From contig NZ_CP101153.1 in assembly GCF_024298825.1 (NCBI RefSeq), positions 1,798,001-1,862,000 of the forward strand: a stretch of DNA of 64,000 nucleotides, given 5' to 3'. Source of the stretch: Haloglomus salinum (GTDB lineage Archaea; Halobacteriota; Halobacteria; Halobacteriales; Haloarculaceae). The position numbers and the translations under genes were made by a program. Position 1 is the first letter of the stretch. Each line of letters opens with the position of its first letter. Below, piece after piece: positions 5,358 to 17,114 of this stretch. The notes under the pieces were generated by a model that saw nothing but the letters and a program-made list of their open reading frames with translations, did not search any database and was not told the DNA's origin.

Positions 5358-5573
5358 CTAGAAGAGTTCGATCACGAACCGGACCACGCCGAGGAGCACC
5401 AGCACCCCGAGGAGGTAGGTCAGACCGACCACAACGTTGCGCTTCCAGCCGCCGGGGACGAACCCCGGAAGCAGCCGCAACGGGCAGGGTCCGGGCCTGG
5501 AGTCGCTGTCCTCGGTACCGCGGGTCGACGAGCGGCCGCGGAACGGTGCCATCAGCGTCAGGACGCTCATCAT
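5358..5573 (-). CDS. Small single-pass membrane protein, last gene of the SipW operon
   Basis: 71 residues. A basic, proline-rich N-terminal half is followed by one hydrophobic segment (VVVGLTYLLGVLVLLGVVRFVI) at the C-terminus, giving a tail-anchored topology. Its ATG overlaps the stop of the upstream Thr/Pro-repeat gene as TAATG, which is the main reason to believe the gene. No family recognised. Confidence 0.5.
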   Translation of the reverse strand: MMSVLTLMAPFRGRSSTRGTEDSDSRPGPCPLRLLPGFVPGGWKRNVVVGLTYLLGVLVLLGVVRFVIELF

Positions 5574-6037
5574 TACTCGGTCCCCTGATTCTGACGTTCG
5601 GCCGGTGTTGGCGTTGGCGTTGGTGTCTCGGCCGGTGTTGGCGTTGGCGTTGGTGTCTCGGCCGGTGTTGGCGTTGGCGTTGGTGTCTCGGCCGGTGTTG
5701 GCGTTGGCGTTGGTGTCTCGGCCGGTGTTGGCGTTGGCGTTGGTGTCTCGGCCGGTGTTGGCGTTGGCGTTGGTGTCTCGGCCGGTGTTGGCGTTGGCGT
5801 TGGTGTCTCGGCCGGTGTTGGCGTTGGCGTTGGTGTCTCGGCCGGTGTCGGTGTTGACGTCGATGTCTCGGCCGGTGTCTCCGTCCCTGTCGGTCTCACG
5901 TCTGCACTCGCCGTGATGCTCACCGTCTCGGTGTCGCCGAGGGTCGCGACGGTCGCGACGCCGCCGATTCCGGCAGCGATGAGGAACGTGGTCACCAGCA
6001 GCGCCAGCACTGTTCTCCGCGTTCGTGTCTCAGTCAT
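5573..6037 (-). CDS. Exported protein with Thr/Pro decapeptide-repeat tail
   Basis: 154 residues from the ATG giving [20 protein letters not shown]. The N-terminus is a signal or anchor helix (about residues 8-32). A short domain ([13 protein letters not shown]) follows, then about nine copies of the ten-residue repeat [10 protein letters not shown] up to the C-terminus. Such Thr/Pro tails in archaeal surface proteins are typically O-glycosylated cell-wall spacers. The start overlaps the stop of the SipW gene by 8 bases and the end couples to the next small gene. It may be a cell-wall anchor or another substrate of the locus. The repeat number is likely unstable. Confidence 0.65.
5601..5870. 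repeat. 30-bp tandem repeat (minisatellite), 8 perfect copies plus one degenerate
   Basis: The unit starts GCCGGTGTTGGCGTTGG and ends TGGTGTCTCG. Eight units are identical from 5601 to 5840 and a ninth (5841-5870) has diverged. It encodes the Thr/Pro decapeptide on the minus strand. Because the unit is a multiple of three, copy-number change keeps the frame open. Confidence 0.97.
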
Positions 6038-7037
6038 CTGTGGACTCCTGTCCCCGCTCGGGTCCCGGGCGCGACGGGGGCGCGCTCGCACCGCCGGGGC
6101 GGTCGGTCTGTCGTTCGGGCTCGCGAGGACTGTCCTCGCCGGGGGAACGGGCGGCACGCGCCGCCAGCAGCCAGGTCACGGCGAGCAGCAGCAGGGCCAT
6201 CACGGCTCCCGCCAGTATCATCGCGGACTCGACGCGGATCTCGTTGTACAGCATCCAGCCGCTGTAGGACGCCAGCACGACGAGGACCAGGAACGTGAGC
6301 CCGAGGTCCAGCGTCTTCACGCCGTAGACGGGCTGGGACTCGCCACCGCTGGCGGGCCCGGTGTCGGTCGTCGATGTCGTCCGGCGGGGTTCCGGCGGGG
6401 TGCCGGTCGTCGTCTGCGGTGTCGCGAGCGCCCGCGATGTCGGCGCCCTGGCGTCGTCCGTCTCCTCGACCACGCGCCGGATGGCGGGCCGGGTGGCGGT
6501 CGGCGCCTTCCGACGGCGTCGGGCCGCCGTGTAGCGCCAGCCCTCCGAGAGGACCAGCAGGCCGATGGGGACGACCACCAGCGACAGGATGCCGATGGGG
6601 GTGTTGGCGAACTGGACCACGTACCCGACGTACGGGAGGACCACCACGACCTCCCCGACCACGCTGTCCGGCCGGACGAGCGCGGGGTCGGGGTCCTCGT
6701 TGGCGTCGCCCATCGTCCGGAAGGCGACCCCCTGCTCGTCGGTCACGCGCTCGACCACCCGGTGGGTCGTCGGGATACCCCCACCGCGCTCGTACGTGAT
6801 GACGTCACCCTTGCGGATGCTCGCGGCCGGGCCGGCGGCGACGACGACCGCGTCGCCGGCGGACATGTACGGCTCCATCGACCCCGAGAGAACGACGTAG
6901 CTCCGGTCGGCGCCGACCAGCTGTGGGACACCGAAGGCGGCGAACGGGGCTACCGCCGCCAGCACGACGACGAGCACCAGCGCACTCACGAGTGCGCGGT
7001 TCGCGCGCCGGACCGCGGCTGCGCCCTCGGCGGTCAT
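6030..7037 (-). CDS. sipW: SipW-type signal peptidase I (archaeal/ER S26B)
   Basis: 335 residues. After an N-terminal membrane helix (about residues 14-37) come the catalytic Ser of SGSMEPYM (Ser53), His92 in TTHRVV and Asp111/Asp115 in GDANEDPD: the Ser-His-Asp arrangement of archaeal signal peptidases, not the Ser-Lys of bacterial LepB. A second membrane region follows (about 140-160), then a long Thr/Arg-rich linker and two C-terminal helices. This is longer than minimal SipW enzymes. It overlaps the gene before it (ATGA) and after it (8 bases), so it is translationally coupled to its likely substrates. It should cleave the atypical signal peptides of the TasA-like proteins encoded upstream. 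Confidence 0.88.
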
Positions 7038-8218
7038 CGGCCGCCCTCTGGGGCGTACAGCAGTCCCGCAGTGGCGTTGTCGACGAAGTCGGTCGGGTCG
7101 GCGTAGGTGGCCTCGGTCGGCCCACCCTTGATGACGACCTTGCAGAGGTCCGGTCCGACTGTACCGTCGCTGTTCAGGAGTTCGAACGCGACAGCGTACG
7201 TCTCCGTGTCGTTGTCCTTCAACTCGACCTCGGTGACCGCGAGGTCGTACTCGCTGTCCGCGCACGAGGGATCATCGCCGTCGTCCGGGAGGTCGTATCG
7301 CCCCTTGACGATGTAGCTGTCGTCGATGGTGTCCGGGTCGTAGTCCGGGTCCTCACCGACGACATCCAGGGCCCCGCCGCAGCGGTCGACGTACTTCCGG
7401 GAGACGTCCAGCTTCCCGAGCTTCGTGCAGGTGCCGTCGAGCCTGCCCCAGACCTCGATGAAGCTGATGCCCTTGTAGTCGGGCTGTTCCTCGGGCGGGT
7501 CGTCACAGCGCCGTCCGGGGGTCCCGGCGAACGGGTTCTCCTCGCCCGCGTGGTTGCGACACTGGGCCGCGACGAAGTCGATGTCGACGCGCACGTCGCC
7601 CTGCCCCTCGAAGGAGTCACGGAGGGCGTAGTCCAGCCGGAGGCAGACCGGGTCGTCGAGACAGGCCTGGTTCCCCGGCTGGCGGTTCGGCCGCGACCGG
7701 CCATCGAGGGCGAACCCCTCGCGGAAGGTCTCGACGAACTCGCGGAGCGAGCTCCAGGGTACCACCACTGCCCCGATGTCGCCGGTGGCGCAGTCGACGT
7801 ACCGGAGCGTCATCCGGAGGTCGTCCACCAGGGTCCCGCTCGCCGCGATACACGATGGGCGGAACCAGGGATACGCCGGGTTGTTCGGCGACGCCTCGTT
7901 CCCCGTCTCCGGGAGCAGGAGTCGGAGGTCGACCTGCCCCTCGTCCCCGGGTTCCAGCTCGCCGAGGTCGAGGGTGAACCGGTCACCGTCGACGAGGCGC
8001 TCGCTGGCGCCGTTCACCGAGCTGGCGACGACGAGGTCGACGATGCCGGTCACGAACGTCCCGTCGAAGCGCTCGCGGTCGAACAGGCTGGCACCGGTCG
8101 AGAGGCCGACGAAGCCGCCGGTCGCGCCGACGGCCGTCATCGCCGCGAGCAGCTGTCGACGGCTCAGGCCGGCGACCGCGCGCTCGTCCGAGAGACCTGC
8201 ACGGGAGCCCTGGTTCAT
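7034..8218 (-). CDS. SipW-dependent-type exported surface protein (394 aa)
   Basis: The N-terminus (LSRRQLLAAMTAVGATGGFVGLSTG) is an RR-containing signal followed by SLFDRERFDGTF, the TasA/SipW substrate junction. The mature part contains the locus signature PGDEGQVDLRLLLPE, several Cys and ends in an acidic domain of about 150 residues with no recognisable name. The phrase CRNHAGEENPF resembles the CRNxDGxxNPC segment that closes the scaffold domain in neighbouring proteins, so the scaffold probably covers residues 45-245. Start and stop overlap the adjacent genes as ATGA. Confidence 0.72.
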   Translation of the reverse strand: MNQGSRAGLSDERAVAGLSRRQLLAAMTAVGATGGFVGLSTGASLFDRERFDGTFVTGIVDLVVASSVNGASERLVDGDRFTLDLGELEPGDEGQVDLRLLLPETGNEASPNNPAYPWFRPSCIAASGTLVDDLRMTLRYVDCATGDIGAVVVPWSSLREFVETFREGFALDGRSRPNRQPGNQACLDDPVCLRLDYALRDSFEGQGDVRVDIDFVAAQCRNHAGEENPFAGTPGRRCDDPPEEQPDYKGISFIEVWGRLDGTCTKLGKLDVSRKYVDRCGGALDVVGEDPDYDPDTIDDSYIVKGRYDLPDDGDDPSCADSEYDLAVTEVELKDNDTETYAVAFELLNSDGTVGPDLCKVVIKGGPTEATYADPTDFVDNATAGLLYAPEGGR

Positions 8219-9039
8219 CGCGACCCTCCGGTGAACGGGTTCTCCGCGCCACAGGACTGGCCGTGGAACCGCAGGTCGAAGCTGACGCCGTCGCCCTGGA
8301 TGTGGTTCCCCGTCGCCTCGGGAAGCTCCCAGCGGAAGCCCACGCAGCGCGCGCTCCCCTGCGAGAGGCACTCGACGACCAGCTCGCCGTCGGCGAGGGG
8401 GTCGGTCGAGCTCACGGCCGCCAGCGAGTCGTTCGCGAGGCTGGTCTCGAAGCTTGAGTCGTAGTCTCCGTCACAGCCGGTCATGAACCCGCCGTCCTTC
8501 CAGACGCGGACATCGAGGGCGTCGGCCAGCTCGCCCGAGTTCGCGTCGCCGCTCCCTGGCCCGAGCGGGTCGTCCTCGCCCGCTGTGAGGGACTCGGGTT
8601 CGTTGACGCCGTTCTCGGCATTGCCGGTCAGCCCGACCTGGAGCCAGACGTCGACGCCCTCGTCGTCGGTCTCGACGGGCTGGGCCTCCAGCCCCACCAC
8701 CAGCGTGCCCGAGTCGCCCGGGAGGACGTTCGGCAGGCTGACGACGGGGCCGGGGTCGTTCACGTAGGTCGGCTCGCTCTCGGGGTCGAAGACCGTGGTC
8801 CGATTGGTCTCGCCGGAGCTGTTGGTGCTCTCGGCGAACGGAGTACCGTCGGTGGTGTAGGTCTCGTACCACGCGACGCGGAGGCGGCGTTCGTCGGTGT
8901 CGCCGGGCGCGGCGTACGTGTACCGCGTGTAGGGTGGGTCGCGGGCTGTCGCGCGGGCGAGCCCCGCGCCGGCGAGCCCGGTGCCCACGCCGGCGACGCC
9001 GGCTGCGGCGAGTAGTTGGCGTCGTGTTAAGTGTGTCAT
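8215..9039 (-). CDS. SipW-dependent-type exported protein (274 aa)
   Basis: The signal is MTHLTRRQLLAAAGVAGVGTG followed by a short mature protein ending CGAENPFTGGSR. It keeps the scaffold features seen in the other substrates: a PNVLPGDSGTLVVGLEAQP strand, an acidic ENGVNEPESLTAGEDD loop, a Cys-containing FRWELPEATGNHIQGD strand and a final FDLRFHGQSCGAENPF strand. It has no extra C-terminal module and may be the simplest scaffold unit or fibre subunit. It is the first gene of the five-gene coupled operon that contains sipW; 206 bases separate it from the next gene upstream. Confidence 0.72.
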   Translation of the reverse strand: MTHLTRRQLLAAAGVAGVGTGLAGAGLARATARDPPYTRYTYAAPGDTDERRLRVAWYETYTTDGTPFAESTNSSGETNRTTVFDPESEPTYVNDPGPVVSLPNVLPGDSGTLVVGLEAQPVETDDEGVDVWLQVGLTGNAENGVNEPESLTAGEDDPLGPGSGDANSGELADALDVRVWKDGGFMTGCDGDYDSSFETSLANDSLAAVSSTDPLADGELVVECLSQGSARCVGFRWELPEATGNHIQGDGVSFDLRFHGQSCGAENPFTGGSR

Positions 9040-9245
9040 ACTGTGTGGTGTTCTCGCGTCGGTCGCGAGGGGCCGGGCGATGCCCGGTTCGACGCCCCCT
9101 CTTCGTCAGATGGGGGCATAGGTATGGGTCGCGTACAGCCGGATTACCGGCGGTACGGTGTCGTTACCGCCACTCATCGGACGGTTCAGCACCGTTCATC
9201 CAGCCGGTGAGCGGAGGTGTTCGGACGGCAACAGGGTGGGTCGCC

Positions 9246-10592
9246 TCAGGGAGCGACGAACCGCGGGTTGTCCAGCCCGCCGGTGTCGCTGCCGTTGACG
9301 AACTCACCGCGGATGCGGAGCGCCGTCAGGTCACCGAGCACGCTCGCGATCTCCGTCGGGGTCGCCGCAGACCCGCTGCTGGACCCGACGGTCCAGCCGG
9401 CGCTCGGGTCGAGGGGGATGTCGTACTCGGACCAGTCCGGCGTGACGTCGGGGAAGTCGGCCACGGAGTCGTACCGGTAGACGAGCGTCGTGCCGGCGCC
9501 CTCGAGGACGATGTCATCCCGGACCAGCGTCCCGTCCGGGGACTGCTGGAGGTCGTACGCCAGGCTCCCGCCCGCGAACGCGGACTGGTCGCCCAGGAAC
9601 GATGCCGGGGCGTCGAAGTACCAGATGCCGCCGGTCGCGGTGTCGACGCCCTCCAGGTACGCCCCGGGGTTGCCACCGGAGCTGACGACCTGTGCGTCCG
9701 CGGTCGTGGCGTCACCGAACAGCTGCCAGCCGGCGTCGTCCTCGTCCTCGAAGTCCGTCTGGGGGGGCGCGGGCTGCTGGCTGCCGCCGTCGCCGGACCC
9801 GGAGTCACCACCGGACTCGTCCGTACACGGATTGTCCGTCCCGTCCGTATTGCGCGACTGGACGGCGTGGAAGTCGATGGCGAAGGCCAGCGTGTCGGAC
9901 TGGACCTCGTTGCCGACCGCCGCCGGGAGCTCCCAGTCGAACCTGATGCAGGGGCCGGTGACGACGCCGGGCTCGCTGCTCGGCGGGTACGGCGTCTGGT
10001 CGCCGGGCACGGCGTCGACCGCGTCGGCGTTCAGCGCCTTCCCGCCCGCGAATGCGGCCAGCGCGCCCGCCAGCGTCACGCCGGAGGCGAGTTCGCCGCC
10101 CGCGATGGGCGTCCCGTTTTCCTCGGCGTAGTAGACGTCGACGAGGATCTCGTCGTCGAGTTCGCCGAGGCCGTCCGTGTCGGTCCCCTCGGCCGCCTCC
10201 TCGGGCTCGTTCTGGCCGTTCTCGGAATCGTCGGTCTGCTCGGTGCAGACCCACAGATACGCAGGGTTCGTGGTCAGCTCGAAACAGAACTGGAACCAGC
10301 CGCTGTCGCCGGGTTTCACGTCGTCGAGCGTGTAGAACAGCCCCGGCTCGCCGTCGACCACGCCGCTCGGGGTCGGGGCGAGGTTCTCGGCGGGCGCGCC
10401 GTTGTACTCGGAGTCGTAGTGGACCAGCAGGTCCAGCGTCCCGGCCGTGATGACGTTGTCCTCGAAGGATTCGCGGTCGTTGAACAGGGCCGAGGTGCCG
10501 AGGCCGGCGCCCGCGGAGGCGAGGCCGATGGCGCCGGCGCCGATGAGCAGCTTGCGCCGGGTCAGGTCGATGAGTCGGTCGTCGTGTGTCAT
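9246..10592 (-). CDS. TasA-like scaffold protein with C-terminal laminin-B-like domain
   Basis: 448 residues. Residues 1-40 are the SipW-type signal (LTRRKLLIGAGAIGLASAGA, then LFNDRESFEDN). Residues 45-245 are the scaffold shared with the next three upstream genes (AGTLDLLVHYD, DDVKPGDSGWFQF, NPAYLWVCTEQT, GPCIRFDWELP, FAIDFHAVQSRNTDG). A Ser/Gly linker follows, then a beta-rich domain from about residue 280 (DFEDEDDAGWQLFGD ... GGSLAYDLQQSPDG ... LRIRGEFVNGSDTGGLDNPRF) that I read as a laminin-B-type domain. Such domains bind extracellular ligands, so an adhesive role is likely. Confidence 0.8.
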   Translation of the reverse strand: MTHDDRLIDLTRRKLLIGAGAIGLASAGAGLGTSALFNDRESFEDNVITAGTLDLLVHYDSEYNGAPAENLAPTPSGVVDGEPGLFYTLDDVKPGDSGWFQFCFELTTNPAYLWVCTEQTDDSENGQNEPEEAAEGTDTDGLGELDDEILVDVYYAEENGTPIAGGELASGVTLAGALAAFAGGKALNADAVDAVPGDQTPYPPSSEPGVVTGPCIRFDWELPAAVGNEVQSDTLAFAIDFHAVQSRNTDGTDNPCTDESGGDSGSGDGGSQQPAPPQTDFEDEDDAGWQLFGDATTADAQVVSSGGNPGAYLEGVDTATGGIWYFDAPASFLGDQSAFAGGSLAYDLQQSPDGTLVRDDIVLEGAGTTLVYRYDSVADFPDVTPDWSEYDIPLDPSAGWTVGSSSGSAATPTEIASVLGDLTALRIRGEFVNGSDTGGLDNPRFVAP

Positions 10593-10628
10593 GATGGGTC
10601 CCCGCCCGCGTGTGTGCAGCGGGGAACG

Positions 10629-10702
10629 CCGGGCGGCGGAGTCGAACCGCCGGGGCCGTCGTCGGCGCGAGCGCCGAGTGGGGGCCGGAACCGTCAGCCG
10701 GT
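10629..10702. repeat. Duplicated intergenic hairpin pair, copy 1
   Basis: A GC stem-loop (GGGCGGCGGAGTCGAACCGC and its partner bases) is followed by GGCCGGAACCGTCAGCCGG. The same two elements in the same order and spacing occur at 12071-12143. Each copy lies between two TasA-like genes and so was probably duplicated with them. It may act as terminator, processing site or 5' regulatory structure. Confidence 0.6.
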
Positions 10703-10714
10703 GTGGGCGACCGC

Positions 10715-12013
10715 TCAGACGTCACGCACCGAGCAGGGGCAGTCGAGCCGCGCGCAGACGAACAGCCCGGTCGGGTTCGCCGGGTCCCCGCTCGGACTCG
10801 GGTTGTTCGTCACCTCGGCGCGCAGCGTGTGCGTGCCCGGGGTCGTGACGGCGGCCGAGTAGCTCGTCGGGTCCTGGAAGTCCGCCGGGTTGGCGTTGCC
10901 CAGGCCGGCGATCTGGACGCCGTCGAGCAGGAGTTGGCCGGTGTTGTCCGTCGCGAGCGCGCCCGACAGCGTGCAGGGGTTCTCGGTCGAGGTGGTCGCC
11001 GGCGCCACGAACGTCAGTTCGTAGACGTAGGAGCCCGCGGGCTGGTCGGTCTCTCCGTCGCCACCGTACGGGGTGATCCACTCGGCGTCGCAGTCCCCGG
11101 GTACGTCCGGGTCGTCCGGGTTGACGTTCGGGTACCACGCCGGGTGCGCCGTCACGACCTGCGCGGCGCCCGTCGTGCCGTCCGGGCTGGCGACGACCTG
11201 CCAGTCGGCGACGCCGGTCGAGAGCGAGGTCGTCGTCGGCTCGCAGCACGGGTTCTCGGTCCCATCGGTGTTGCGGGCCTGGACGGCGTGGAAGTCGATG
11301 TCGAACGCCACCGAGTCGGACTGGACCTCGTTGCCCACCCCGACCGGAAGCTCCCACTCGATGCAGAGGCAGGGTCCCGTCGTCACGCCGGGCTCGCTGC
11401 TGGCCGCGTAGGGCGATTGGTCGCCCGCCGGGACGGCCTCGGCGTCGGCGTTCAGCGGCGCCCCGGCCGCGTACGTCGCCAGGAACTCGGCGAGGCTCAC
11501 GTCCGAGGCGATGGTGCCGTCGGAAATCGCCGCCCCGTCCTCGTCGCAGTAGAACGCGTCGACGAGAATCTCGTCGTCGAGTTCGCCGAGTCCGTCCGTG
11601 TCCGCGCCCTCGGTCTCCAGTTCGGGCTCGTTCTGGCCGTTCTCATCGTCCGCCGTCTGCTCGGTGCAGAACCAGAGGTAGGCGGGGTTCGTGTTCAGCT
11701 CGAAGCAGAACTCGATGGCGCCGCTGTCGCCGGGCTTCACGTCGTCGAGGGTGTAGAAGAGCGCCGCGGCGCCATCGGCGGTGCCCGAGGGGCTCTCCGC
11801 GAGGTTCTCCGCGGGCGCGCCGTTGTACACGGCGTCGTAGTGGACCAGCAGGTCCAGCGTCCCCGCGACGACGGTGTTCCCGTCGAAGGATTCGCGGTCG
11901 TTGAACAGCGCGGACGTGCCGAGGCCGGCGCCCGCCGAGGCGAGGCCGATGGCCCCCGCGCCGATGAGCAGTTTCCGTCGGGTCAGGTCGATGAGCTGGT
12001 TGTCGTTGGTCAT
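10715..12013 (-). CDS. TasA-like scaffold protein with C-terminal Cys-containing beta-sandwich module
   Basis: 432 residues from the ATG giving MTNDNQLIDLTRRKLLIGAG. The first 240 residues are close in sequence to the protein encoded just downstream at 9246 (same signal, LFNDRESFDGN, DLLVHYD, DDVKPGDSG, CIEWELPVGVGNEVQSD). The C-terminal 180 residues are different: WQVVASPDG ... SYVYELTFVAP ... LLLDGVQIAGLGN ... GTHTLRAEVTNNPSPSG ... GLFVCARL. This has the look of a galactose-binding-like or CBM-type beta-sandwich that could bind glycans. The pair looks like a gene duplication with module replacement. Confidence 0.78.
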   Translation of the reverse strand: MTNDNQLIDLTRRKLLIGAGAIGLASAGAGLGTSALFNDRESFDGNTVVAGTLDLLVHYDAVYNGAPAENLAESPSGTADGAAALFYTLDDVKPGDSGAIEFCFELNTNPAYLWFCTEQTADDENGQNEPELETEGADTDGLGELDDEILVDAFYCDEDGAAISDGTIASDVSLAEFLATYAAGAPLNADAEAVPAGDQSPYAASSEPGVTTGPCLCIEWELPVGVGNEVQSDSVAFDIDFHAVQARNTDGTENPCCEPTTTSLSTGVADWQVVASPDGTTGAAQVVTAHPAWYPNVNPDDPDVPGDCDAEWITPYGGDGETDQPAGSYVYELTFVAPATTSTENPCTLSGALATDNTGQLLLDGVQIAGLGNANPADFQDPTSYSAAVTTPGTHTLRAEVTNNPSPSGDPANPTGLFVCARLDCPCSVRDV

Positions 12014-12070
12014 GGTTCGTGTTCCCCTTGCGTGTCGGCGTGTCCCCACCGCTCGCGTGTCGGGGTGATG

Positions 12071-12143
12071 CCCGGGCGGCGGAGTCGAACCGCCGGGCCC
12101 GCCGCCGACGCCGTGTCGCCGCCGGGCCGGAACCGTCAGCCGG
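12071..12143. repeat. Duplicated intergenic hairpin pair, copy 2
   Basis: Second copy of the paired elements described at 10629-10702, located between the vWA-carrying substrate gene and the 432-residue substrate gene. Confidence 0.6.
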
Positions 12144-12190
12144 GTACCGGGGAGCGGGCCCGTCCGGGCGCCCCCCGTGGACGGTCGCAA

Positions 12191-13915
12191 TCAGGCCGGA
12201 GCCGGACCGCTGCCGTCGTTGTTGCGCTCCTGCTCGGTGTAGAAGCCCAGGTCGAAGCCGATGGTATCGCCCTGGATCTCGTTGCCGACGTCGGCCGGGA
12301 GCTCCCACTTCAGCGCGACACAGTGCATCACGCCGTCGCCGCGGAACGCGTCCCGGTCGGGGTCGTTCGCGGGGTCGCTCAGCTCGTCGTAGATCGTCGC
12401 GCGGTTGCCGTCGAGCGGGATGCCGTTCCCGCTGGACAGCTCCGAGAGGACGTTCGCCAGCGAGTCCTCCATGATCTTCTTCTCGCCGACGAACCGCGCC
12501 GCGATGGCGCCGAACACCGACGGGATATTGAGCGGGTCGTCGACGTCGTTGAAGAACACCGGGTCGCCGCCGGAGCCGCCGGCGGGACCGGCCATCGACT
12601 GGAGCACGCTGTCGTTCCCGCTGCCGACGGAAATCGTGAAGACGTCCGTCGCGGGGGCCGGGGAGGCCGCCCGGGCGTCGTCCGCCGCCGCCGTCGGGGA
12701 GCTGAACGTCGTGGAGCCAGTGCCGTTGAACGACTCGCCGTCCGAGAGGACGATGTTGGCCGCACCGACGCCCGGCCGCCCGCCGGACGCGAGTTCGCTC
12801 TGCGCGTCGTCGACACCCTCGCCGATGTAGGTGCCGGTCGCGATGCCGCTCGCGTTCGAGAACGGGTCGGGGTCGCCGTCACCGTCCGTAGGGGTCGATC
12901 CGGGGCCGCTGCCGGTCACGAGGTTCGCGAGCTTCTGCCGGAGGCCGGAGAGTGCCCCGTCGACCGTCGACAGGCTCTGGGTGAGCGGCTGTAGGACGCC
13001 CGTCCGGGGAGCCGTGTCGTTGCTGCCCTCGCCGTCGAAGTATGCCACACCCACCTGCACGTCGGCGTTCTGCGCCTGCAGGTAGTCGATGAACTGGCGG
13101 GTGCCCTTCTCGACGAGGTCTATCTTCGTCGTCTCGTTGTAGGTCGTGCCGTTGATCGTGATGTTGTCGGTGCTGACGACGCCGCCGTACTGGTCGTACA
13201 GCATGGAGCCGGAGAAGTCCAGCGTCAGCATGATGTCGGCGGGCTCAGCGGGGTCGTAGACGTTGTCGCAGTCCTCGTCGTACCAGAGGGTGGCCTGGAT
13301 GGCCTGGCCGAGGTCGCCGAGGTTGTCGGAGTCGACGATGAGTTCGGGCTCGGCAGCGATGCCGCCGTCCTCGCTGACGTTGCCGGCCTGCATCCAGATG
13401 TAACCGGGGTTGTCACAGAGGTGGAGCGAGAAGGTGATCTCGCCCTCGTCGCCGGGTTTCACGTCGCGAAGCTGGACCAGCGTGTCGTTGGCCTCGCCCG
13501 TGATGGGGTCAGAGCCGTAGCTCGCTTCCGAGAGCGGCGGGATGTTCTCGCAGTTCAGCGTCGGGATGTTCGCGCCGTTGCTGTTCTCGTCGTCCTCGTC
13601 CGGGAAGTCGCTGTACCTGACAAAGCCGGCGTCGTTGTCCGCCGGGATGGACTGCTCGCCGTCGCCGTCGTGGTCCGGGTGGGCGTTGACGAAGACCGTC
13701 TGGTCCTCGACGCCGTCGAAGTACGCGTAGTGCTGCTGCCAGTCGACCAGCAGGTCGAGTTCGCCGGCCACGATGGAGTTGCCGGTGAAGCTCTCCGTGT
13801 CGCGGAACAGCGCGGACGTACCGAGTCCGGCGCCCGCGGACGCGAGGCCGATGGCGCCGGCTCCGATGAGCATCTGGCGCCGGGTCAGGTTGATCAGTTG
13901 GTTGTCTTGGGTCAT
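12191..13915 (-). CDS. TasA-like scaffold protein with inserted von Willebrand factor A domain
   Basis: 574 residues. A SipW-type signal (LTRRQMLIGAGAIGLASAGA, then LFRDTESFTGN) is followed by the scaffold (GELDLLVDW, RDVKPGDEGEITFSL, NPGYIWMQAG). At about residue 228 the scaffold is interrupted by a vWA domain: DIMLTLDFSGSM carries the MIDAS DxSGS triplet at Asp233-Ser235-Ser237, and IVLSDGESFNG supplies the later Asp. After the insert the scaffold resumes with FRGDGVMHCVALKWELPADVGNEIQGD and ends FDLGFYTEQERNNDG. A metal-ion-dependent adhesion domain displayed from a fibre-type subunit fits an adhesin role. Confidence 0.85.
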   Translation of the reverse strand: MTQDNQLINLTRRQMLIGAGAIGLASAGAGLGTSALFRDTESFTGNSIVAGELDLLVDWQQHYAYFDGVEDQTVFVNAHPDHDGDGEQSIPADNDAGFVRYSDFPDEDDENSNGANIPTLNCENIPPLSEASYGSDPITGEANDTLVQLRDVKPGDEGEITFSLHLCDNPGYIWMQAGNVSEDGGIAAEPELIVDSDNLGDLGQAIQATLWYDEDCDNVYDPAEPADIMLTLDFSGSMLYDQYGGVVSTDNITINGTTYNETTKIDLVEKGTRQFIDYLQAQNADVQVGVAYFDGEGSNDTAPRTGVLQPLTQSLSTVDGALSGLRQKLANLVTGSGPGSTPTDGDGDPDPFSNASGIATGTYIGEGVDDAQSELASGGRPGVGAANIVLSDGESFNGTGSTTFSSPTAAADDARAASPAPATDVFTISVGSGNDSVLQSMAGPAGGSGGDPVFFNDVDDPLNIPSVFGAIAARFVGEKKIMEDSLANVLSELSSGNGIPLDGNRATIYDELSDPANDPDRDAFRGDGVMHCVALKWELPADVGNEIQGDTIGFDLGFYTEQERNNDGSGPAPA

Positions 13916-14009
13916 TGTGTGGTGTGTGTGCCCCCGGGCAGTGTGAGTTGGTTACCCCCGCCGGGGGACGGTGCCGGGCGAGCGGCCCGGCGCGCTGGTT
14001 ATCAAGCTA

Positions 14010-14957
14010 TCAGTTCGTCGAGGTCGGGGTCGGGGTCGGGGTCGACGTCGTGAACGGGTCCGGGTTGTTGCGGACCTGCTCGGTGTCGAACACCAGATCG
14101 AACGTGATCGAGTCGCCCTGAATCTCGTTGCCGACCGCGGCCGGAATCTCCAGCAGGAGGCAGAAACTCACCATACCGGCACCGACGACCGGCTCGCCGG
14201 TCTCGTCGTCGTAGCCGACCTGGAGCAGGTTGCCGTCGTTGTCACGGAGGACCTGCCCGCTGGACAGGAAGCTGCCGAACTCGTTGACCGTCGGGTAGTC
14301 CATGTCGGACTGGACCGTCTGGCCGTAGTCAGAAGCGGTGAAGTCGTCCTGTTCGACCTCGGCGTACGGGTCGGGGACGAAGACGCCGCCCTCGTCGTTG
14401 GTCCAGCCGTCGAGGCCGGACAGGTCCGCCTTCGAGCCGCCCGGGGAGCCGTCGGTCGGGCCGCTGTAGGACTGCCAGAGCGACGCGAGCATCGCGTCGC
14501 CCAGGTCCGCGTCGTTGTCCGCGTCGCCCTCGGCTTCCTGCTCGGGCTCGGGGTTCGGGCCGCCCTCGTTGGTGACGCCGCCGGGCACGGAGACCTGGAC
14601 GTAGCCGGGGTTGGTCTGGTTCTCGATGTCGAAGCAGACGATCATCCAGTCGCCGGGTTTCACGTCGTCCACGGCGAAGGTGACGGCTGCTCCGTCCGCA
14701 ACGTCGGATTGCCCGAGAACGCCGGTCTGGTCCGCCCAGTAGTCGTTGGCCGCCACGATGGTCCCGGTGACGCTCATGTCGAGCGTCCCCGCGGTGATGG
14801 AGTTCCCGGTGAACTCCTCGGTGTCGCTGAACAGGGCGGAGGTGCCCAGCCCGGCACCGGCCGAAGCGAGACCGACCGCGCCCATGCCCGCGAGGACCTT
14901 CCGGCGCGAGAGGTTGTACAGCTGCGAGTCGTTTCCGATGTCGTCGTTGTTGCTCAT
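14010..14957 (-). CDS. TasA-like SipW-dependent protein with short Thr/Pro C-terminus
   Basis: 315 residues from the ATG giving MSNNDDIGNDSQLYNLSRRK. Signal VLAGMGAVGLASAGAGLGTS, then LFSDTEEFTGNSITAGTLDMSV. The scaffold motifs are present (DDVKPGDWMIVCFDIENQTNPGY, LEIPAAVGNEIQGDS, FDLVFDTEQVRNN). Instead of an adhesive module the tail is TSTPTPTPTSTN, a miniature version of the repeat encoded at 5601-5870. It is first in the minus-strand locus and has the longest upstream region, so it may be the major subunit. Confidence 0.78.
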   Translation of the reverse strand: MSNNDDIGNDSQLYNLSRRKVLAGMGAVGLASAGAGLGTSALFSDTEEFTGNSITAGTLDMSVTGTIVAANDYWADQTGVLGQSDVADGAAVTFAVDDVKPGDWMIVCFDIENQTNPGYVQVSVPGGVTNEGGPNPEPEQEAEGDADNDADLGDAMLASLWQSYSGPTDGSPGGSKADLSGLDGWTNDEGGVFVPDPYAEVEQDDFTASDYGQTVQSDMDYPTVNEFGSFLSSGQVLRDNDGNLLQVGYDDETGEPVVGAGMVSFCLLLEIPAAVGNEIQGDSITFDLVFDTEQVRNNPDPFTTSTPTPTPTSTN

Positions 14958-15390
14958 TTGTGTGTTTCTCCCCGGCGGCGTGTCCGGTCCGGTCCCGGCG
15001 ACCGTGTCGGCGGATCGCTTCCGGTTGCTTCCCTCTGGGAGGGTGGTGGTGTTAGACATGGAGTCGGTACCGCACCCGCATCGGCTGCCCGAATAGTACA
15101 CTACCGGCCATTGAACGTACGGTCAGCTGGTGACAGAACACGGTAGCCCGTTCATACTCGCAGGGGTGGAACCGTTCATCACGCCGGAGTTCGGCGGTAG
15201 AGAGACCGTACTCGGAGATAGGCAGACCATGTCTATACCCCCGCGGGACAATCATCGTTCGATTGCAGTACCCCGTGTCACCAACCGCAGGTAGGGGGGA
15301 GCAGAAGATGAACACGAGACACCAGACAGGGGACGGCGCATCGACCGGGAACCCGGAACCGGGGAGAGCGCTCCCGGGAGGTGGCCGACC
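14958..15390. other. Divergent intergenic region between the SipW locus and its likely regulators
   Basis: 433 bases without a convincing gene. It must hold the promoters of the first TasA-like gene (minus) and of the DUF7344-type gene (plus). CCGTTCAT occurs at 15148 and again at 15172, 24 bases apart, and also upstream of the coupled sipW operon at 9192. I see no clear long inverted repeat. Confidence 0.45.
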
Positions 15391-15948
15391 GTGAGTGACA
15401 TCGAGAGGGCGGGCGGACTCACGGGCCGCTTCCGGCGCCGGCTCCCGGCCCACGAGGTCCACGAGGTCCTGAGCAGCACGCGCCGGTCGGCCGCGCTGTC
15501 GTACCTCCGGCGAGAGGGCGAGACCAGCGTGCAGGCGCTCTCGGAGGCCGTCGCGACCGCCGAGACGGGGGCCCGCCCGGCGCCGCGGGATGTCCGGCTC
15601 AGCGTCTACAACTCGCTGGTCGGGACGCACCTGCCCAAGCTGGCCGCGCTCGGTCTCGTCGACTACGATGTCGAGCACAAGCGGATCCGGGCGCTTCCCG
15701 CCGCGCGCCAGGTGACCAGCCACACCCGTGTCCTGACGGGCCTGGGAATCACCTGGGTGGGGTACTACCGCGCGCTGGGTATCGTCGGCCTGTTCCTCGT
15801 GGTGGCGTCGCTCGCGGGCGTCCCGGTGCTGTCGGCGGTGGACCCGCTCGTGCCGGCGACGCTCGCACTCGCCGCGTTCGCCGTCTCGGGCGTCTACCAG
15901 CTCTGGATCGAGCGGCGGCGGGCCCACCGGACGTTCCAGGGCCAGTAG
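15391..15948 (+). CDS. DUF7344-type winged-helix protein with C-terminal membrane helices
   Basis: 185 residues with a GTG start (MSDIERAGGLTGRF). Residues 20-105 are the haloarchaeal winged-helix unit: EVLSSTRRSAALSYLRREGE, SVQALSEAVATAE, VYNSLVGTHLPKLAALGLVDYD. Two hydrophobic segments (about 125-145 and 150-170) follow, so the DNA-binding part would sit at the inner membrane face. It points away from the SipW locus and is followed by a paralogue, making it a plausible local regulator. That function is inferred from position. Confidence 0.72.
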   Translation: MSDIERAGGLTGRFRRRLPAHEVHEVLSSTRRSAALSYLRREGETSVQALSEAVATAETGARPAPRDVRLSVYNSLVGTHLPKLAALGLVDYDVEHKRIRALPAARQVTSHTRVLTGLGITWVGYYRALGIVGLFLVVASLAGVPVLSAVDPLVPATLALAAFAVSGVYQLWIERRRAHRTFQGQ

Positions 15949-16071: not shown

Positions 16072-16758
16072 ATGAGTAGTGATAACATACCTGCTGATTG
16101 GGTGGACAGGGGAGAGGACCGCGCCGCATCGGTAGCGGCCGGTGGGACGCTGGCCAGCGACGGTGGGACGGCTGCGGCGGTCACTACCACCGAGGTGACG
16201 GAGGCTCCCGTCATCGCTCCCGAGGTGGTTTTCGAGGTGCTGAGCAACGAGCGCCGCCGCTACGTCCTCCATCACCTCAAGGCAGAGGACGAGCGGGTCA
16301 CGGTCCGTGACCTCTCGGAACAGGTCGCCGCCTGGGAGAACGACATCGAGATCGCCGCGGTGACGCCCAAGGAGCGCAAACGTGTCTACACGGCGCTCCA
16401 CCAGACACACCTGCCGAAGATGGCCGAGGTGGGCGTCATCGACTACGACCGCGACCGCGGGACGCTGTCGTTGACCGAGTCCGTCGGCGCGTTCGACATC
16501 TACCTGGAGATCGTCCCGGAGCGTGACCTGTCGTGGGGCGAACTCTCCCTCGCGCTGGGGAGTTTCGCGACGGCGCTCGTGGCGGCGGTGGCACTGGGGG
16601 TCTACCCGTTCACCCTGCTCCCGGATATCGCCTACGCCGCGATCATCGCGGCCGGGTGGCTCGCCGTCGGCGTGGTCCACACCTACCTCCAGCGTTCGGA
16701 CCGCCTCGGTGGTGGCGACCCGACGGACCTGTCGGAGTCGCTCCGCCCGCCGGACTGA
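16072..16758 (+). CDS. DUF7344-type winged-helix protein, membrane-associated
   Basis: 228 residues. A disordered N-terminal 50 residues lead into EVLSNERRRYVLHHLKAEDERVTVRDLSEQVAAWEND and VYTALHQTHLPKMAEVGVIDYDRDRG, the DUF7344 signature. Two C-terminal hydrophobic segments follow (about 160-180 and 183-203). A TTTTTATA box lies about 40 bases before the ATG. It is a paralogue of the preceding gene and of the truncated gene at the window end. Confidence 0.78.
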   Translation: MSSDNIPADWVDRGEDRAASVAAGGTLASDGGTAAAVTTTEVTEAPVIAPEVVFEVLSNERRRYVLHHLKAEDERVTVRDLSEQVAAWENDIEIAAVTPKERKRVYTALHQTHLPKMAEVGVIDYDRDRGTLSLTESVGAFDIYLEIVPERDLSWGELSLALGSFATALVAAVALGVYPFTLLPDIAYAAIIAAGWLAVGVVHTYLQRSDRLGGGDPTDLSESLRPPD

Positions 16759-16865
16759 CGCCGGGGGCAGTCGCCAGCCCATATGCCCGTTAATGCGCCG
16801 TTAAAGCCCATCTGTCGACCGGTCACGGGAGCGTGTTCATATCCTCCGTCGTCCATTGGGTGGAT

Positions 16866-17114
16866 ATGTTCGAAAACATCACACCGCTGTTCTTCGGCCT
16901 GCCGGGCGGTCCCGAGATGCTGGTCGTCCTCCTGCTGGTCGTCCTCCTGTTCGGGGCCGACCGGCTGCCGAAGCTGGCCCGGTCGTCCGGGGAGGCGATG
17001 GGCGAGTTCCAGAAGGGCCGCCAGGCGGTCGAGACCGAGATCCGGGGCGCCCGCGACCGGACACTGGCCGACGAGGACGCGGCCGACACCGTTACCGAGA
17101 CGGAGTCGGTCTGA
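16866..17114 (+). CDS. tatA: Sec-independent protein translocase subunit TatA
   Basis: 82 residues. A short N-terminus with PLFFGLPGGPEMLVVLLLVVLLFGADRLPKLARSSGEAMGEF is the TatA/E pattern: one membrane helix, the FG hinge, then an amphipathic helix, with an acidic C-terminus. The ATG giving MFENITPLF is preferred over a start 11 codons upstream. Haloarchaea use Tat for much of their secretome, and the substrates encoded at 8-15 kb carry RR-containing signals. Confidence 0.88.
   Translation: MFENITPLFFGLPGGPEMLVVLLLVVLLFGADRLPKLARSSGEAMGEFQKGRQAVETEIRGARDRTLADEDAADTVTETESV

Follow-up and report, generated by a model that had tools for sequence, protein, structure and literature searches.

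In TasA fibres, each subunit is filled by the N-terminal strand (F29, I32, F39) of its neighbour, whereas the monomer complements itself, according to excerpts of two reports (PMC9674648, PMC9715654). Pilus adhesins offer a second point of reference. The pilus subunits Mfa5, RrgA and GBS104 carry a vWA domain with a complete MIDAS inserted in a beta-sandwich, as excerpts of PMC7835359 describe, and the vWA domain of PilB is an adhesin with a metal-binding MIDAS, as excerpts of PMC8179133 describe. A paper on the Halorubrum pan-genome mentions exchangeable islands that encode hypothetical proteins bearing peptidase and vWA domains (PMC11078007, in part); those proteins might correspond to the cluster described below. 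No open-licence paper that we found describes, by title or abstract, a vWA domain inserted in a TasA-like protein, and because the literature covered was open-licence only, this is weak evidence of absence. To our knowledge, a vWA-bearing fibre subunit on a TasA-like scaffold has no earlier report.

We analysed 64,000 nucleotides of Haloglomus salinum (NZ_CP101153.1, positions 1,798,001 to 1,862,000; hereafter the window), whose genome is a single contig of 4.19 Mb. A preliminary description had proposed that the protein encoded at 12191-13915 is a TasA-like scaffold interrupted near residue 228 by a vWA domain, which a fibre would expose and which would bind ligands through a metal.

The gene cluster and its secreted proteins

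Seven consecutive minus-strand genes (6030-15101) encode one SipW-like signal peptidase and six secreted proteins (Table 1). The frame of the vWA protein, read from 13915 to 12191, has 574 codons and no internal stop, and the plus-strand translation contains a stop. Four of the six secreted proteins exceed the TIGR04088 cut-off for a SipW-type signal, the vWA protein with 20.3 bits (cut-off 19). The peptidase falls below the Bacillus SipW equivalog NF046067 (104.9, cut-off 190). Among 55 related loci 7 kb or longer, some of which may share a species, 50 encode a SipW-like peptidase. Twin arginines occur in 192 of 196 family signals, and signal cleavage in the vWA protein would follow TSA. The neighbouring subunit at 14010-14957 is a candidate main fibre subunit.

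Table 1. Features of the vWA-encoding gene and its cluster, in window coordinates (residue numbers refer to the vWA protein).
Feature	Position	Strand	Basis or remark
Whole gene: SipW-type signal, TasA-like scaffold, inserted vWA	12191..13915	minus	open frame, 574 aa
Twin-arginine SipW-type signal peptide, residues ~1-35	13811..13915	minus	TIGR04088 match
Mature N-terminus, candidate donor strand, residues 36-50	13766..13810	minus	conservation; TasA analogy
Scaffold N-part, residues 51-218, ends WYDEDCDN	13262..13765	minus	hhalign to insert-less paralogues; model strands
Inserted vWA with linker, residues 219-477 (borders approximate)	12485..13261	minus	profile, fold matches, hhalign, junctions
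MIDAS motif 1, D233-F-S235-G-S237	13205..13219	minus	D233 91/91, S235 88/91 (Thr in 3), S237 91/91
Hairpin arm after MIDAS motif 1, residues 239-263	13127..13201	minus	short strands 246-248, 252-254, 257-259; putative role
Acidic loop just before T362, residues 335-361 (DGDGDPD)	12833..12913	minus	sequence; putative metal binding
MIDAS T362	12830..12832	minus	T in 90/91
MIDAS D392	12740..12742	minus	D in 87/91, N in 4
Scaffold C-part, residues 478-567	12215..12484	minus	hhalign; model strands 480-485, 531-538, 551-562
SipW-like archaeal signal peptidase I	6030..7037	minus	TIGR02228 104.1 bits, cut-off 51.85
Tat-signal secreted protein, weak family membership, least certain member	7034..8218	minus	sequence
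Family member, closing-strand motif, plain Tat-like signal	8215..9039	minus	sequence and own-genome match L019
Paralogue with C-terminal Laminin_B	9246..10592	minus	PF00052 54.9 bits; TIGR04088 30.5 bits
Paralogue without insert at vWA loop, C-terminal extra domain	10715..12013	minus	scaffold model, TasA match
Neighbouring TasA-like subunit without vWA, 315 aa	14010..14957 (frame 14010-15101)	minus	PF12389 28.6 bits, cut-off 22.5

The nearest named relative, Haloglomus halophilum (L049), shares 80% identity. Within the H. salinum genome, a second cluster at 1150 kb holds a vWA protein 52% identical to the one studied here, and further scaffold matches lie at 2040 kb. C-terminal extra domains occur on some family members, a tail of ~175-200 residues being common in insert-less relatives; the tail of the 10715-12013 paralogue (10718-11242) gave zero Pfam matches.

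Several features border the cluster. Just past it, on the opposite strand, are two DUF7344 genes (15391-15945 and 16072-16755, plus strand; 78.0 and 116.2 bits), possibly regulators, and a TatA-like gene lies near the RR-signal proteins of the cluster (16833-17111, plus strand; PF02416, 50.1 bits). At the other end, a minus-strand frame (5573-6157) contains many near-identical PTPTPAET-type repeats.

Position and fold of the inserted domain

To place the insertion borders, the vWA protein was compared with its paralogues. A profile of 52 vWA proteins (A1) was aligned by hhalign to a profile of 42 paralogue scaffolds that lack the insert (A3). Signal, N-part and C-part aligned with a probability of 100% and E 4e-86, and roughly residues 224-479 were skipped. 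Both ends are thus kept, and the scaffold resumes with the paralogues' closing strands, as the preliminary description had it. The scaffold runs to N218, a linker spans 219-223, vWA strand 1 covers 226-233, the vWA domain ends near 477 and the scaffold begins again at about E478-I481, so that the interruption proposed near residue 228 was correct to within about ten residues. At sequence level the junctions read TLWYDEDCDN, then VYDPAEPADIMLTLDFSGS, the vWA domain and ARFVGEKKIME, then DSLANVLSELSSGNGIPLDGN; the adjoining insert-less paralogue reads DAFYCDED, then GAAISDGTIASDVS, then LAEFLATYAAGAPLNAD.

Structure prediction points to the same arrangement. The model of the vWA protein, built from 52 sequences, has a mean pLDDT of 80.5 and a pTM of 0.75, with residues 1-51 (the signal and candidate donor strand) below 50. 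Ahead of the insert, its main strands correspond to those of the 10715-12013 paralogue as 55-66/54-64, 147-150/83-90, 157-166/97-107, 171-183/111-123 and 207-212/150-156. The vWA domain then follows in the vWA protein, whereas the paralogue makes a plain turn. Behind the insert site come strand 480-485/162-173, helix 486-494/174-180 and strands 531-538/215-221 and 551-562/234-245. Extra short strands (71-100) in the vWA protein occupy a stretch missing from the paralogue. Because the strand order is the same on both sides and the paralogue has a turn, the vWA domain is inserted within a beta-hairpin, in keeping with the loop insertion proposed earlier. Prediction confidence is good for the scaffold strands on either side of the insert. 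Taken together, strand assignment, pLDDT and pTM suggest that the two scaffold halves pack against each other.

The fold of the scaffold had to be read through the paralogue, since the best 50 rows of a fold search with the whole vWA protein were all vWA matches. The paralogue scaffold model (pLDDT 74.3, pTM 0.72) has TasA as its top Foldseek matches (fibre 8aur, 1.2e-4; 5of2, 3.3e-3). VIA-align likewise gave TasA entries Z 10.1, 10.1 and 9.3, with rmsd 3.7-3.8 over 145-157 residues, and the row after these three reached only Z 6.7. Carried over by the profile alignment, this fold is predicted for the scaffold of the vWA protein as well, which bears out the earlier label of TasA-like. The likeness is structural, resting on the modelled paralogue. 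In sequence, the vWA protein gave no PF12389 match at E 0.1 in the Pfam scan, was not listed for the TasA equivalog NF046066 (score over 450 required; the 9246-10592 paralogue scored 12.8 bits), and returned no TasA match when A1 was searched against the PDB, where all 47 matches fell within the vWA part. Past the KPGD motif, the A1 and A3 profiles could not be aligned to the TasA sequence and A2 only loosely, and the insertion is therefore not placed on TasA residue numbers.

The mature N-terminus is well conserved, F37, D39, E41, F43, N46 and A50 each being kept in at least 90% of A1. By analogy with TasA, residues 36-50 may be the donor strand. Since these residues are kept, the vWA protein should possess both a donor strand and an acceptor body. 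The C-terminus reads TEQERNNDGSGPAPA, and a C-terminal LPXTG sorting signal with membrane helix, as in RrgA and SpaC, is absent from the protein. A1 shows no variation at W211, Y212, D213 and N218, which lie just ahead of the insert, and the DxDxDN found there appears to resemble a calcium loop. C167, C216 and C532 are kept in at least 90% of vWA proteins; C532 lies across the insert from the other two and could take part in a disulfide bond spanning it.

The insert itself has a vWA fold. Its structural matches include PTMP1 (Z 21.4), the Mfa5 vWF domain (21.0), SpaC (19.7) and integrin alpha1 (19.6) and span ~180 residues, with collagen VI and TFIIH also among the matches; for the whole protein, the top Foldseek match is the pilus adhesin SpaC. 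Searched against the PDB, A1 retrieved vWA structures with a best E of 6.1e-8 (4rck). Against Pfam VWA PF00092 (cut-off 23.8), the protein scored below threshold (19.9 bits whole, 23.6 for the insert alone), and other inserts at the same junction scored well over it (91.0 and 94.8 bits). The DxSGS motif and later Asp noted previously correspond to DFSGS at 233-237 and D392; with T362 added, the protein has a full MIDAS (D233, S235, S237, T362, D392).

We asked whether the MIDAS is lost in close relatives. Loci came from a similarity search and genome searches, and two loose signal and closing-strand patterns gave 252 frames, 224 once duplicate short loci were removed, of which 203 matched signal, N-part and C-part profiles. 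After correction, the stretch between the parts exceeded 100 residues in 111 of these 203. A single sequence cluster, that of the vWA inserts, took in 93 of the 111; removing two duplicated loci left 91. These were collected by similarity, independently of the MIDAS motif. A1, by comparison, was chosen using a DxSGS-type motif, which makes its 100% conservation there uninformative. All five MIDAS residues are present in 87 of the 91 non-duplicate haloarchaeal inserts: close relatives retain the site. In the other four (L079_6546, L082_9158, L091_7743 and L105_3742), Asn replaces Asp and three also read DNTDS, which from their sequences may possibly make them non-metal or altered ligand sites. 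A chance vWA-like motif was ruled out by the agreement of fold, profile and conservation.

The hairpin loop across haloarchaea

The vWA inserts at this one junction range from 187 to 279 residues and often occur in two genes per cluster. The junction follows the pattern WYDxDxDN, insert, GTLxxxLxxLxxGxPLDG. Three proteins (cluster 2), close scaffold relatives, carry an unrelated insert at the vWA junction. Of two such 'PROP' inserts scanned, one weakly matched DUF6923 (E 0.0057), and a profile of the three weakly matched WD40/YVTN-type propellers at E 0.11 or worse; that the cluster 2 inserts are propeller-like is our guess from these matches. L103_5610, with the unrelated insert, and L042, which has a vWA domain, agree at 66% of 190 scaffold columns. 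The L042 junction reads TVWWYDTDGNN, vWA, GTLADDLAALSSGAGVPLD and that of L103_5610 reads TVWWYDARGDN, the other insert, GTLGGDLAALSSGNGIPLD; the last residue blocks are set off by short linkers, which we counted within the inserts.

In a 62-row tree from the scaffold columns alone, L042 and two sampled 'PROP' proteins form a starred group (100/98), and a single clade for the 17 vWA-bearing rows was rejected (log-likelihood 211 lower, p-AU 3.7e-7). With 190 columns, the tree has many weak branches, and gains, losses and recombination of half-scaffolds are not separable in it. It is an even call, in our judgement, whether the hairpin loop is a plug-in socket in which domains (a longer vWA, a compact vWA, a propeller-like domain) were inserted, lost or swapped several times, giving exchangeable binding heads, exported folded by Tat, on donor-strand fibres.

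Other inserts lie elsewhere. A giant member, L103_15080 (L103:15080-17995, minus strand; 972 aa frame), has PKD domains inserted at a different loop, and we set it aside as a same-site case because its WYDDGD comes after the insert. Fourteen proteins of clusters 1 and 4 (for example L040_31_2235 and L052_7562_9226) seem to have another insertion site, past the helix next to the vWA site, as the junctions of two suggest, and they too were set aside as same-site cases. Three of these inserts were scanned, with zero Pfam matches. Five proteins (L101_2878, L103_7718, L084_7639, L085_7627 and L086_7392) have 263-305 residues between signal and KPGD part, far above the others, and the one spacer scanned had no Pfam match.

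Matches occur in 15 of 59 relatives at E 1e-15 or better and, for A1 at E 1e-30, in 60 of the 194 genomes from the class, several of these matches covering the scaffold alone; in the phylum, 66 of 294 genomes match at 1e-10. A full-length span is no proof of a vWA domain, as some such spans cover propeller-like proteins. Outside the order of H. salinum, the matches listed comprise the vWA part alone, in other frames that are mostly larger, or a scaffold piece alone (G320, G358). Among the matches listed, the combination of vWA and TasA-like scaffold is confined, on sequence evidence, to haloarchaea. Matches are also present in ten plasmid records, four of them covering 80% or more of the query at a single place, with annotations as vWA protein or SipW-dependent signal protein. 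A virus-borne element was rejected: a scan of viral contigs gave 24 pattern matches, of which 0 were confirmed as relatives.

Proposed function and comparison with known fibre subunits

We consider it probable that the 12191-13915 protein is a TasA-like (camelysin-type) fibre subunit whose loop vWA domain serves as a metal-dependent adhesin. The Tat route in haloarchaea carries folded proteins, and since nearly all family signals bear RR, the vWA protein would be exported by Tat with its vWA domain already folded. Cleavage would then fall to the cluster's own SipW-like peptidase. As in TasA, the freed N-terminal strand could complete the beta-sandwich of the next subunit, an arrangement suggested by the fold and the conserved N-terminus. 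Because both connections of the vWA domain run through a hairpin, the subunit would retain its donor strand as well as its acceptor body, and it could take a place within the fibre or at its end, displaying the vWA domain sideways. There the MIDAS would hold Mg2+, and the metal in turn an acidic group of a ligand, joining cells to cells or to a surface.

This adhesin reading is supported by the hhalign result, the Z scores of scaffold and insert, the conserved MIDAS, the clustered peptidase, the RR counts and the absence of HExxH. Against it stand the low pLDDT of residues 1-51, the missing TasA sequence match, the four degenerate sites among the 91 and the fact that some vWA domains, such as that in TFIIH, have no adhesin role. 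Of the earlier interpretation, the TasA-like fold, the two retained ends, the loop insertion and the MIDAS conservation stood; fibre assembly, vWA exposure and ligand binding we infer.

The vWA domain might instead bind fibre subunits, cell-surface proteins or the S-layer, and so cap, bundle or anchor the fibre in place of holding foreign ligands. Many related clusters do place two vWA-bearing subunits beside insert-less ones, bundling of TasA fibres uses a protruding loop (excerpts of PMC9674648), and, with no C-terminal anchor visible in the vWA protein sequence, something must tether the fibre to the cell. A MIDAS would be used in either role and the present results fit both; because Mfa5, RrgA, GBS104 and PilB provide precedents, adhesion through the MIDAS is our first choice, and this organising role comes second, as a rather unlikely one.

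Two further explanations dispense with the fibre. The protein could be secreted without polymerising, its scaffold only supplying the signal and carrying a soluble vWA domain, as might be argued from the weak sequence similarity to TasA proper and from the fact that we found direct fibre evidence for no haloarchaeal member. The conserved mature N-terminus, the TasA-like fold and the clustering of several subunits with a SipW-type peptidase make this improbable. Most improbable by far is a camelysin-type protease with the vWA domain as substrate-binding module, an idea prompted by the match of the neighbouring 14010-15101 frame to PF12389, which is named Camelysin metallo-endopeptidase: HExxH was found in 0 of the seven cluster proteins checked, and TasA, which shares the fold, forms fibres (PMC9674648, in part).

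For work on haloarchaeal biofilms, the adhesin reading offers concrete genes and point mutations, and it marks a loop of TasA-like fibre subunits as tolerating folded inserts of about 190-280 residues.

Among known systems, TasA of Bacillus subtilis (5of1, 5of2, 8aur), which forms a donor-strand biofilm fibre, is alike in fold (Z 10.1), SipW-type signal, clustered SipW-like peptidase and conserved N-terminal strand region. It differs in having no inserted domain; the signal of the haloarchaeal protein is of RR (Tat) type, and full-length sequence similarity is very weak. The archaeal bundling pilin AbpA (7ueg) and the thread subunit Saci_0406 (7pnb) also form archaeal donor-strand fibres, but their matches (Z 5.9 and 6.0) are no better than those of unrelated jelly-rolls, and the available excerpts on them describe no vWA insert. 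PilB of Streptococcus sanguinis, a type IV pilin, likewise has a vWA adhesin grafted as a module on a fibre subunit (PMC8179133, in part); its vWA domain is joined to the end of the pilin module, whereas the haloarchaeal one is inserted in a loop. The tip adhesins Mfa5 (Porphyromonas gingivalis), RrgA, GBS104 and SpaC share the vWA-in-sandwich design (Z 21.0 for Mfa5 and 19.7 for SpaC). In these adhesins, however, the host is a CnaA-type Ig-like domain with an isopeptide bond, from another class of pilus, whereas here it is a TasA-type scaffold in archaea. If our reading is true, the protein is an archaeal, non-type-IV counterpart of the vWA-bearing pilus adhesins on another fibre scaffold, and with this case added, a vWA domain in a beta-sandwich would be a recurrent answer to fibre adhesion.
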